Assembly: GCA_903895195.1 (NCBI GenBank)
Contig: CAITSZ010000046.1
Location: forward strand, 1-64,000
Length of the DNA: 64,000 nt
DNA from: an uncultured Chlorobiaceae bacterium
Lineage (GTDB): Bacteria > Bacteroidota > Chlorobiia > Chlorobiales > Chlorobiaceae
Direction: 5' to 3'
The translations under genes and the position numbers were made by a program. Below the pieces are notes generated by a model. That model was not told where the DNA came from and did no database searches. It saw only the letters and a list, made by a program, of their open reading frames with translations. Positions 15,086 to 20,619 of the stretch are shown piece after piece. Every line of letters starts with the position of its first letter. Position 1 is the stretch's first letter.

Positions 15086-16474
15086 CTATTTTCTGCTGAT
15101 GTTGTTATCTCTCTCAAAAGTATCAAGTTGCTCACGAATGTTAGTCCTGAAAGCAAGGCTTGTGACAAGGTTAAGCAGTTTATAGGGGTTGCGCCGTACC
15201 CTGTTGGCAATTTTTTTCCATGAATAGACCTTGTAATAGCTTTTTATGAATTTGTGCTGAAATTCAACAGGGTCGTATTTCTCGGAACGGATCACAAGAT
15301 TCATGGCATTATACTTTTCCCAGTCCTCGCTGGTAATCCAGCCGTTTTTCTTGTATTCCCAGTACATTGATGTCCCCGGATAGGGGGTGATAATCTGAAA
15401 AATCGGCATGAATACACTGTTCTTGCCGACGAACTTGACCAGATTATCCATGTCTTCGAAACTGTCGAGCTCAGGGTTTATTAAAAAATTACCCTGAACG
15501 TTGAGTCCGGCCTGCCGACACTCCTCAATAAGCCGTGAAAATTTGTCAGCAGAGTTGACATGCCCTTTATTGTAGGCTTCAAGAGTGCTTTGGTTTATGG
15601 ATTCAAAACCGACAAGCACCATGATGCATCCGGCATCAACCAGCCTTTTGACGGTCTCCTTGTCTTCCAGAAAATTGATGCTGAAAAAGACGCTGAAGTT
15701 GATATTGCACTCTTTGATGAGGTCAAGCGCTTCCCATAACTTCTTTTTGCTGACCCCGATATTCTCATCAGTCAGCATGAACCATGGTTTCGACGACTTT
15801 CTATTCGGCTTGAAAAATACCTTTTTAGCAATTTCAATCTGCTTTTTAAGCTCTTCGGGTTTCTGCGTTCTGTAAAGCTTTCCGGTAAAATTCGGGGTCA
15901 CGCAAAATGAACATTCAAAAGGACAGCCGCGGGTTATATAGATAGGAATGGATTTGGTTCCATCTACTTTTCCGCGTTTGGACGCTTTTGCTATCCGTTC
16001 ATAATCAATGGGAATGATGTCATGAACAGGCGGAAAGTCAGTGGAGTTGTAGAGTGGTTGCAAGCGGTTAAGGGCAACATCTTCAAGAATGGTCAGCCAG
16101 AGATTTTCGGCTTCGCCGCAGACGATGCAGTCGGCATGGGGGCGGGCTTCTTCGGTATTAAACGATACATGCAACCCTCCAAGCATGACTTTTTTCCCTT
16201 TTTTCCTGAAGCTGTCCGCAATTTCATACCCTCTTGATGCATCGATAGTTCGCGACGTTATGCCGACAATGTCGTAATCTCCGTCGTAATTGATGGTGTC
16301 ACCAAAATGTTCATCGACGATCTCAATGTGATGTTGGGCGGGGGTCAGGCTCACCAGAACGCCTATGGCCATATTGAACAAGGGCTTCTGGTTTGTTTTA
16401 GAGTCTTTTTTGCCTTTAGGAGCTATGAGGAGGATTTTGAGGGGGTTAATACGAGGAAGTTCATGGTTGCTCAT
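15086..16474 (-). CDS. B12-binding radical SAM protein
   Basis: A 462-residue protein with an N-terminal cobalamin-binding-like domain (residues 10-150, with DEHFGD and LGGLHVSF) and a radical SAM domain with the cluster motif [10 protein letters not shown] (CX3CX2C) near residue 190. The C-terminal part has the long-tail segment usual in BchE/P-methyltransferase-like proteins. In green sulfur bacteria this family includes BchE and the bacteriochlorophyll side-chain methylases BchQ and BchR. Position beside chlorosome genes makes a pigment role plausible, but I cannot assign which substrate. Confidence 0.8.
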
Positions 16475-16582: not shown

Positions 16583-17806
16583 TTATTTCAGCGCCTTGTC
16601 ATAATCCTTTTGTTTGTGGTTCTCATCATGCTGGTTAAGATCAAAAGGAATGTGAAGCCATTTATCCTTGAAAAAGGCGTCGCCGGGTTCAAGGCCGGTA
16701 AGGCTGATCGGAAGGGTAATGATTTTTCGCTGGTTGCCGATATGAATGTAAAGCTCCTCTCCGGTAACCCAGACATCCAGGTCGACAGGATTGGCAAACA
16801 TCAGCTTCAACTGTACTTCGTAGACATTGCCTTTGCGGATAAACTTGATCGGTGGTTCATCATACATCATCTCAGACGGATCGGTATCGCCATACATATC
16901 TTTTGCAAACTGCTCCAGTGACTTGAGGCCTACAATTTCCTGCTCATACATTCTGAGCTTTTTAACAGGAAGGGGAGAGAAGCCCTCCTCTATCTCTCCA
17001 AGGTAGGTCTGCTGAATAGACTTCCATTTCTCAAGATATCCGCTGTTCTCGTTGGTATCCAGCAGCCTGTTGACAAGCACCATATCCACCTTGAATCCAT
17101 AGAGGTTCAGATAGGTCAGTGCCCGCATAGTCTCCTTGATCGACATTTTCTCCGCATTCATGACAAGGCGCACCGTTGATGTAGCATTATCCGTAAGGAT
17201 TTCACGGATATCGACAAGCTCATCAAAAACCTGATCCACTGAATCCACAGCATCTGCGGGGGGAATATAGAACGCAATTTTATCGCCCATCTTTGAAAGG
17301 GGCTTCCTCAGCGGCTTGATAAGATATTTATTGATATTCTTCACTGCTTTCATGCCCCATGCGAGAGTATCGGGAAGGGAGAGAAGTCGCAAGGTTTCGC
17401 CGGTTGGTGCGGTATCGAGCACAAGGACATCATATTGACCGGATGCTTTATAACGTTTGATTCTCAAGAGAGAAAAAAGCTCTTCCATGCCAGGCAGGAT
17501 AGTCATTTCATCGACCATTACTCCCGAAACTCCCTGACCTACAAAAATCTTTGAATAGAATTTCTGTACCGACTGCCAATTTTGCTTAAGGTCGACATAT
17601 GGGTTAACCTCAATGGCATGGAGATTTTCCTTGATTTTTACAGGCTCTGAGCCGAGGGGGAGATTAAACGAATCAGAGAGACTGTGAGCCGGGTCGGTTG
17701 AAAGAATAAGAGTGCGGTAGCCGAGCTGAGACAAGCGGACAGCCGTAGCCGCAGAGACACTTGTTTTGCCTACTCCACCTTTACCTGTGAATGTTAAAAT
17801 ACGCAT
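16583..17806 (-). CDS. ArsA/GET3-family ATPase with HSP20-like C-terminus
   Basis: A 407-residue single-domain ArsA-type ATPase. The deviant Walker A is FTGKGGVGKTSVSAATA at the N-terminus, the switch region STDPAHSLSDSF follows, and VLVLDTAPTGETLRLL carries the Walker B/switch II. The last 90 residues (VYEVQLKLMFANPVDLDVWV onward) resemble the alpha-crystallin-like ArsA_HSP20 domain. No arsB or arsenite-binding cysteine set is seen, so a delivery or assembly ATPase is more likely than arsenic export. It is upstream of and divergent from the chlorosome cluster. Confidence 0.85.
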   Translation of the reverse strand: MRILTFTGKGGVGKTSVSAATAVRLSQLGYRTLILSTDPAHSLSDSFNLPLGSEPVKIKENLHAIEVNPYVDLKQNWQSVQKFYSKIFVGQGVSGVMVDEMTILPGMEELFSLLRIKRYKASGQYDVLVLDTAPTGETLRLLSLPDTLAWGMKAVKNINKYLIKPLRKPLSKMGDKIAFYIPPADAVDSVDQVFDELVDIREILTDNATSTVRLVMNAEKMSIKETMRALTYLNLYGFKVDMVLVNRLLDTNENSGYLEKWKSIQQTYLGEIEEGFSPLPVKKLRMYEQEIVGLKSLEQFAKDMYGDTDPSEMMYDEPPIKFIRKGNVYEVQLKLMFANPVDLDVWVTGEELYIHIGNQRKIITLPISLTGLEPGDAFFKDKWLHIPFDLNQHDENHKQKDYDKALK

Positions 17807-18221: not shown

Positions 18222-18347
18222 ATGCCCGAAATAATCAAATACACGACAGTGTTTGCTCCTGTGGTTTTTTTTATGGGAGGTATTTTTATTGTCATCCTTC
18301 TCAACAAGTTTATCGGAAAGCAATCATCCAATAAAAAATCGGGATGA
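18222..18347 (+). CDS. Small single-span membrane protein (41 residues)
   Basis: An ATG-initiated frame of 41 residues: a short polar start (MPEIIKYTT), one hydrophobic span of about 20 residues with a central MGG, and a basic, Ser/Asn/Lys-rich tail (GKQSSNKKSG). The positive tail suggests that the C-terminus faces the cytoplasm. It sits alone between the ArsA-type gene and the first chlorosome gene. No Shine-Dalgarno is obvious. The amphiphilic layout makes chance less likely, but homologues are not known to me. The following 18348-18609 holds no other gene. Confidence 0.45.
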   Translation: MPEIIKYTTVFAPVVFFMGGIFIVILLNKFIGKQSSNKKSG

Positions 18348-18609: not shown

Positions 18610-18837
18610 ATGGCAGACTTTACAAACAATGAGTTCACCGTAGCTCTCAACAATTATTTTAAGACACTTGGAACACTTGCTCAGCAGCTTGTTGACCTTG
18701 CAAGTGCTGTAATTAATACAGCGGGATCACTTCTTGCGCCTATCACCAAGTCAGCGACAGGTCTCGTAGGTAGTGCTTCAAACACAGTTACCCAGGTTTA
18801 CCAGGGTGCAGCTGCAGCTATTGCTCCTAAAAAGTAA
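18610..18837 (+). CDS. Chlorosome envelope protein, CsmB/CsmF family (copy 1)
   Basis: A 75-residue hydrophobic, Ala/Thr/Val-rich protein ending in AAAAIAPKK. Its pattern (short polar N-terminus, long amphipathic/hydrophobic middle with EP- or AP-type turns, and the IAPKK end) matches the CsmB/CsmF proteins of the chlorosome envelope. It lacks a signal peptide, as chlorosomes are cytoplasmic organelles. The first 90 bp are nearly identical to copy 3 at 20371. The start lacks a Shine-Dalgarno and is preceded by a TTACCATC leader shared with copy 3. A strong terminator follows. Confidence 0.85.
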   Translation: MADFTNNEFTVALNNYFKTLGTLAQQLVDLASAVINTAGSLLAPITKSATGLVGSASNTVTQVYQGAAAAIAPKK

Positions 18838-19061: not shown

Positions 19062-19289
19062 TTACTTTTTTGGTGAAATAGCAGATGTGACGTTCTGGAC
19101 TACAGAACCAATCGTGTTGATTCCACTTCCAATAAGGTCAATAGCTGTTTTGCCAAGGGGTTCAATAACCTGTACAGCTCCTTTGACGGTGTCGCTGACG
19201 AGTCCCAGAGATTGCTGAACAAGTGTGCTGCCGGCGTGTAAAAAATTCGATAGTGCAGCTGAAAGATCGTTGTTAGTTTCGTTTGCCAT
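19062..19289 (-). CDS. Chlorosome envelope protein, CsmB/CsmF family (copy 2)
   Basis: A 75-residue protein with the CsmB/CsmF layout: polar start MANETNNDLSAALSNF, hydrophobic middle with IEPLGKTAIDLIGSGIN, and the family end TSAISPKK. It is the copy with the EPLGKTA-type turn, which I associate with CsmB-like members. It converges on copy 1 across shared terminator DNA. No Shine-Dalgarno is visible; the leader ends ATTACAATA before the ATG. Confidence 0.85.
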   Translation of the reverse strand: MANETNNDLSAALSNFLHAGSTLVQQSLGLVSDTVKGAVQVIEPLGKTAIDLIGSGINTIGSVVQNVTSAISPKK

Positions 19290-19520: not shown

Positions 19521-19820
19521 CTATTGAAAGCGCTTTTCAATTGCCTTGGATGGATGGGCATAACCGCTTGATTGAGGCGAAGAACCTTTGGCTCCCAATG
19601 AGGCGCTGAAGAACGAAGGGCTACCCTCAAAACTCATATCCATCTCGTTTTCAACTATATCACATGAGGGTTGTTGCATCTCTTCGAGTGCACAGCACAA
19701 CAGCTCAGAAAAAAGGAACTCCATGCGTTCAGCACCATCCTCTTTCGCCATCAACTCAGTGCGAAACAGGGAATCACCTTTCATCCTTTCAAGGATTGCT
19801 TCCAGGGGTTCATAAGGCAT
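19521..19820 (-). CDS. Unknown protein with a CsmA/CsmE-type C-terminal tail
   Basis: A 99-residue protein. The first 60 residues are acidic and helical with two adjacent cysteines (LLCCALEEM) and are not CsmA-like; the D-x-x-F helix faintly recalls Nif11-type leaders. The last 23 residues (start KGSSPQSSGYAHPSKAI, ending EKRFQ) closely follow the tail of the CsmE-like protein encoded just upstream (GSSPEASGFAKPTKEVE, then SRFKD) and the tail I recall for CsmA, which is cut off during maturation. The gene begins 17 bp after the CsmE-like stop, so they form one transcript. This suggests that the tail works as a shared sorting or maturation tag. Function is unknown. Confidence 0.75.
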   Translation of the reverse strand: MPYEPLEAILERMKGDSLFRTELMAKEDGAERMEFLFSELLCCALEEMQQPSCDIVENEMDMSFEGSPSFFSASLGAKGSSPQSSGYAHPSKAIEKRFQ

Positions 19821-19837: not shown

Positions 19838-20092
19838 TTAATCCTTGAATCGAGATTCAACTTCCTTGGTAGGCTTGGCGAAGCCTGACGCTTCAGGAGA
19901 AGATCCTCTGAAGGGAGATGAACTGCTGCCGCCGTAAATAAAAGGATAGGCATTAACCAGAAGGCGCTTGGTGCCTTTACCTACATTTTCCAGATAATCG
20001 CCTACTGTCCACCATGTGCCATCAATGTAGGTTTCGACTAATCTTCCGTATGCTTCTCCCCAGTTGGTAAAAACGCCTGATATTTTACTCAT
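19838..20092 (-). CDS. csmE: Chlorosome envelope protein, CsmA/CsmE family
   Basis: An 84-residue protein with the CsmA/CsmE layout: VFTNWGEAYGRLVE helix, a WWTVGDYLENVGKGTKR segment, a Gly/Ser-rich linker and the tail SSPEASGFAKPTKEVESR that is processed in CsmA. CsmA forms the baseplate and carries a histidine (His25) thought to ligate bacteriochlorophyll a. Here the aligned residue is Thr26 (IDGTWWTV against EGHWETV as I recall it). It is therefore unlikely to be CsmA itself and is better called CsmE-like. It is the first gene of a two-gene transcript with the protein that shares its tail. Confidence 0.8.
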   Translation of the reverse strand: MSKISGVFTNWGEAYGRLVETYIDGTWWTVGDYLENVGKGTKRLLVNAYPFIYGGSSSSPFRGSSPEASGFAKPTKEVESRFKD

Positions 20093-20370: not shown

Positions 20371-20619
20371 ATGGCAGACCTGACAAACAACGAGTTCACC
20401 GTAGCTCTCAACAACGTATTTCAGAGTGTTGGAACACTTGCACAGCAGTTGCTTGACCTGGCTGGTGCACTCATCAATACAGCTGGATCAATTGTTGAGC
20501 CGATCACCAAAGCCGCATGCGGTCTATTTTGTAATTGTACCAGCTCAGCCCCTGCAGCATCAGCTCCGGTTGAAAAGGTATACCTCGGTTCAGCTGCAGC
20601 AGCTGCTCAAAAAAAGTAA
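20371..20619 (+). CDS. Chlorosome envelope protein, CsmB/CsmF family, cysteine-rich (copy 3)
   Basis: An 82-residue paralog of copy 1. The first 45 residues are almost the same (MADLTNNEFTVALNN), followed by IVEPITKAACGLFCNCTSSAP with three cysteines, and then VEKVYLGSAAAAAQKK, so the usual AIAPKK end is changed. The divergence is confined to the C-terminal half. The cysteines could bind a cofactor or form disulfides. The same non-Shine-Dalgarno leader as copy 1 precedes the ATG and a strong terminator follows. Confidence 0.8.
   Translation: MADLTNNEFTVALNNVFQSVGTLAQQLLDLAGALINTAGSIVEPITKAACGLFCNCTSSAPAASAPVEKVYLGSAAAAAQKK

Follow-up and report, generated by a model that had tools for sequence, protein, structure and literature searches.

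How a small protein without a chlorosome body comes to end in a chlorosome tail, and what that tail might do for it, is the question raised by a gene at 19521..19820 (minus strand, stop codon 19521-19523) in a window of 64,000 nucleotides, the whole stretch of DNA analysed here, from an uncultured Chlorobiaceae bacterium. An earlier note on this DNA had claimed that the N-terminus of the product is not of chlorosome type and that its tail tracks the tail of a CsmE-like protein encoded next to it, and both observations were borne out. The product has exactly 99 residues, of which the last 22 are KGSSPQSSGYAHPSKAIEKRFQ. The upstream CsmE-like ORF, a csmE variant of 84 amino acids (19838..20092, minus strand) matching PF02043 over its full length (E 6e-35), terminates RGSSPEASGFAKPTKEVESRFKD, with its own tail at 19841-19909 (minus strand). 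In the 99-residue product the match to Pfam PF02043 (Bac_chlorC) is confined to residues 73-99 (E 4.2e-7, 30.4 bits, cut-off 25) and spans profile positions 54-80, that is, 27 of the 80; no PF02043 match was found outside these residues. Aligned without gaps to the neighbouring CsmE, the product scores 77 (BLOSUM62), and 1000 shuffles reach a maximum of 47, so the likeness of the two tails is not due to chance. Only 17 bp separate the csmE stop from the start of the fusion gene, both on the minus strand, and a single shared transcript is therefore likely.

The tail (residues 78-99; 19524..19589, minus strand) corresponds to a defined part of the chlorosome precursors. With the CsmA of the window's genome as query, phmmer retrieved the solved mature CsmA (PDB 2k37 and 5lcb), a 59-residue chain ending in SLRGS59, and the CsmA precursor of the window's genome continues past LRGS as SPEVTGYAVPSKEV. 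According to a paper on the baseplate (PMC4992139), proteolysis takes C-terminal residues off CsmA in Cba. tepidum; the earlier note likewise stated that the equivalent tail is lost during CsmA maturation. The segment common to the fusion and CsmA runs from three residues before this processing point to the C-terminus. The processing points align (LRGS/SPE in CsmA and KGS/SPQ in the fusion), with a predicted cut at S80/S81 (19578..19583, minus strand), the position at which mature CsmA ends. The tail is conserved in orthologues: S80, S81, P82, G86, Y87, A88, P90, S91, K92, E95, R97 and F98 are invariant in ten full-length homologues, giving the unchanged pattern SSP..GYA.PSK..E.RF. The shared start near LRGS59 and the invariant residues show that the module carried by the fusion is the CsmA/CsmE pro-segment, including the processing point.

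Among the matches listed, this tail is found on three bodies only, namely CsmA, CsmE and the Nif11 protein discussed here, so that its description as modular rests on one type of fusion. Two candidates for a third tail-bearing body were rejected, the one in G062 (contig C341) being CsmA and the one in G084 (C28) a broken csmE (G and C numbers denote genomes and contigs). Repeated recopying of the tail from the adjacent csmE is unlikely, given that the fusion tails read PSK and those of the csmE variants mostly PTK, and that fusion tails persist where csmE has gone.

Nif11-type domains are best known from the precursors of peptide natural products. The body of the fusion had been called unrelated in the earlier note; this did not hold, since residues 1-48 (19677..19820, minus strand), with helices predicted at 5-15, 17-25 and 29-48, are recognisable as Nif11-like. 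When the fusion family was aligned with seven classical Nif11 proteins (six paralogues from the window's genome and one from G063), hhalign returned a probability of 97.5% (E 8e-12, 47 columns). The NCBIfam model TIGR03798 (Nif11-like leader) matches residues 1-36 of the fusion weakly (20.7 bits, under the cut-off of 32.3) and 10 of the 12 members of the fusion family (best E 2.3e-6), and Pfam Nif11 (PF07862) matches 8 of the 12. The AlphaFold (AF2) model shows three confident helices, then a disordered linker with pLDDT below 50 at residues 51-67 and 69-73, and a short tail helix. Its top PDB match by Foldseek is a Nif11 leader (9zn4), which is not significant (E 4), and the fusion profile found no useful match among PDB sequences. 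A double-Gly and a GF.CT motif are features of true Nif11 leaders (PMC2887384), and both are absent in all ten fusion homologues. The body is a degenerate Nif11-like domain, with three predicted helices. A diverged CsmA, which the earlier note had named as a finding that would refute its reading, was rejected on the clear Nif11 similarity and the confined PF02043 match, and the body of the full-length homologues is Nif11-like as well.

The description of the N-domain as acidic and containing Cys-Cys stands in part. Residues 1-75 have a pI of 4.05 (10.0 for the tail) and Cys-Cys lies at residues 42-43, but only 6 of 10 homologues have it at this position, so it does not define the family. The homologues of G034, G038 and G066, without the Cys-Cys in the helix, have a Cys-Cys in the acidic linker. 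This linker (residues 49-77; 19590..19676, minus strand) is variable in length and sequence and of low predicted order.

Clear full-length copies of the fusion occur in about ten of the 86 genomes of the family, in one genus (Chlorobium) throughout: the window's genome, G061, G033 (two copies), G075, G072 (two copies), G034, G038, G066 and G044. G031 holds a divergent copy, and G037 and G080 hold broken ones. Neither the second genus of the family nor the order's other families searched yielded a copy, and the named records with homologues are Chlorobium or Chlorobiaceae MAGs. The patchy spread and the broken copies indicate that the gene is not essential. Over all pairs, pN/pS (Nei–Gojobori-style counts from pairs that are not independent, and therefore descriptive) is highest in the linker, at 0.67, against 0.33 in the N-domain and 0.34 in the tail; for most pairs of the closest clade it is ~0.1-0.2 at both ends, with tail values of 0.07-0.2 in most close pairs. 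The N-domain and the tail thus look kept by purifying selection, the linker more loosely. An annotation artefact or pseudogene is ruled out by the open homologues together with this selection.

The partner csmE has itself changed. The His of CsmA/CsmE is a BChl a ligand (PMC4992139), and at its position the csmE variant of the window encodes Thr26 (codon 20015..20017, minus strand; GTWW for GHWW). The His is lost in five of five intact csmE copies beside a fusion (Thr in four, Ser in G072) and likewise in the csmE adjoining a tail-less Nif11 gene on contig C48 of the window's own genome (G000); about a hundred other csmE copies of the family keep GHWW. The CsmE tree indicates at least two losses, one in the fusion-linked group, which includes a copy not adjoining nif11 (G037 C89), and another in the nif11–csmE cassettes of G024 and G028. 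The GTWW or GSWW variants, in the window and in loci L038, L137 and L139, mostly adjoin Nif11 genes.

In four genomes (G061, G033 at C42, G075 and G072 at C13) the upstream csmE is internally deleted, with its upstream region and its first and last codons left, and the fusion downstream of these remnants is intact and under selection. The fusion therefore outlives its partner, and works without an adjacent csmE. Remnants of csmE also lie upstream of the fusion copies of G044, G031, G037 and G080. The start codon of the G075 fusion is ATA in the alignment, possibly an alternative start or recent damage.

Adjacency of nif11 and csmE without fusion was found at G000 C48 and in G041, G040, G049, G036, G024, G028 and G044. 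The last seven genomes carry a cassette in which a tail-less nif11 with an LWGN.I-type end is followed by csmE and by a B12-binding, BchE-like radical SAM gene, whose product falls far under every equivalog cut-off. The genes of these cassettes (loci L127, L135-L139 and L162) lie on the same strand with tight spacing, and may represent a chlorosome-linked modification pathway. In G027, a nif11 of the LWGN type is followed by just a degenerate csmE tail. The G000 C48 homologue was rejected as a second fusion: this Nif11 protein has an LWGN end in place of the tail, and its apparent tail match crosses a stop codon. The nif11–csmE linkage is thus wider than the fusion and is its probable source. 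Such linkage would offer a simple deletion route, by which a nif11 gene adjoining csmE may have shed its own C-terminus and gained the tail of the csmE copy.

Three further ORFs of the window are called CsmB-like by family resemblance: a small hydrophobic protein downstream of the fusion (19062..19289, minus strand), a paralogue at 18610..18837 (plus strand) and another with a Cys-containing insertion at 20371..20619 (plus strand). The first gave no match among the profile libraries searched, and CsmB-like genes are retained beside the fusion in syntenic loci. A B12-binding radical SAM gene of the BchE/HpnJ-like group (15086-16474, minus strand) adjoins the csm cluster, with synteny in G061, G033 and G072. 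Beside the cluster lies an ArsA/Get3-type ATPase gene with an HSP20-like domain (16583-17806, minus strand), and an 86% identical relative immediately precedes csmA elsewhere in this genome (L041, 1162-2391); this ATPase may help to target small chlorosome proteins. An ORF of 41 amino acids with one hydrophobic helix (18222-18347, plus strand) recurs near csm/nif11 loci of several genomes (L038, L043-L045, L052, L053 and L110), and a PDB search for it as a solved reaction-centre subunit gave no match. Finally, G000 C12 carries at ~45-71 kb (L040 and L114) what appears to be a RiPP cluster: an array of classical Nif11 leaders accompanied by a radical SAM/SPASM-like maturase, a C39 peptidase-ABC transporter and genes of HlyD/TolC-like type.

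Regarding function, the reading that we tentatively favour, with less than even confidence, is that the fusion is an accessory of the chlorosome envelope, with a tail that the CsmA/CsmE machinery recognises and may also trim. In RiPP relatives the Nif11 domain is a docking domain. In the favoured scheme the fusion would serve chlorosome-envelope assembly: the factor that targets and trims CsmA/CsmE precursors would recognise its tail, the tail would bring the Nif11 domain to the nascent baseplate, where it might dock, and a possible cut at GS/SP would free the acidic Nif11 part. The conserved tail could also act in binding instead of cleavage. The earlier note had proposed that the tail is a tag for sorting or maturation, and had placed the protein with the chlorosome; both we infer only, and the present data suggest that the tail can be a separable targeting or processing signal. 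To our knowledge, neither the protease trimming CsmA nor the route of envelope proteins to the chlorosome has been established.

A broader proposal, which we regard as somewhat unlikely, is a Nif11-based system of chlorosome assembly or maturation in Chlorobium, in which the Nif11 factor of the window's lineage would itself bear the CsmE pro-segment as a transferable address tag. Nif11 proteins encoded with CsmE variants would act on or guide CsmE/CsmA, the B12-radical-SAM enzyme would join this Nif11–CsmE variant system in some genomes, and the CsmE partner, free of pigment binding, would turn structural or be lost.

It is distinctly unlikely that the fusion is a decoy, occupying the CsmA/CsmE protease or an assembly factor and thereby tuning maturation without being a chlorosome part. 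A tail and processing point the same as those of the true substrates, a small acidic body and persistence without its own csmE would all suit such a role, but a body that is a mere carrier would leave the conserved Nif11 domain unexplained. A RiPP-type precursor, with the Nif11 half as leader and the CsmE-type tail in place of the core for a modifying enzyme, is improbable. The Nif11 homology of the N-domain and the tail-less LWGN.I relatives in cassettes with radical SAM genes elsewhere speak for it; however, the reading fails on the missing defining features (double-Gly and GF.CT) and on the C39 peptidase-transporters, which are present in only 4 of the 12 fusion genomes. Moreover, that of the window's genome lies on another contig, beside the classical Nif11 array, and the B12-radical-SAM gene of the window is ~3 kb away, with other genes intervening. 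There is only a slim prospect that an accident explains the gene, a nif11 having gained the 3' end of csmE and drifting with a functionless tail. The adjacency of nif11 and csmE would account for how it arose, and the patchy spread and the breakage in G037 and G080 speak for it; yet for most close pairs constraint on the tail equals that on the body and exceeds that on the linker, and the tail pattern is invariant in ten sequences. A similarly slim prospect attaches to an uncleaved adaptor, its tail kept solely for binding FMO or some other partner in the baseplate, which would fit the outward position of the C-terminal region of CsmA on that baseplate (PMC4992139) but would require lasting binding to be specific to the fusion, as the segment is absent from mature CsmA.

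No literature joining Nif11 with chlorosomes was found in a search that covered subscription journals poorly. The combination of Nif11 and a chlorosome tail, and its linkage with csmE, appear to be undescribed, each half being a known family. With the pro-segment alone on a foreign body, the fusion is a natural probe for the chlorosome signal, which would be defined if the tail proved sufficient for trimming or for association with the chlorosome. For Nif11 domains, it offers a likely setting beyond peptide natural products. The locus also highlights CsmE copies without the pigment ligand, lost at least two times and mostly linked to Nif11.

Compared with CsmA and CsmE (PF02043), the fusion has the C-terminal pro-segment with GS/SP and sits among csm genes, but it has neither the pigment-binding helix nor the GHW BChl a site, and does not match the whole domain. 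It shares with Nif11-like leaders (TIGR03798, PF07862) a homologous N-terminal stretch of 36-48 residues with predicted helices, and an array of true Nif11 paralogues is found in its own genome; in contrast to them, it scores under the curated cut-off, lacks GF.CT and double-Gly, and has the CsmE tail at its end instead of a variable core. The tail-less Chlorobium Nif11 proteins (LWGN.I[PS]G end) have the Nif11 domain and the direct csmE linkage in common with it, and the one at G000 C48 lies downstream of a GTWW csmE in the same arrangement; however, most of them retain GF.CT and the LWGN end and are without the chlorosome tail. Finally, CsmI, CsmJ and CsmX are chimeric envelope proteins of the chlorosome in which Fe-S domains are joined to chlorosome motifs, and provide a precedent for chlorosome segments on other domains, theirs being Fe-S and that of the fusion Nif11.
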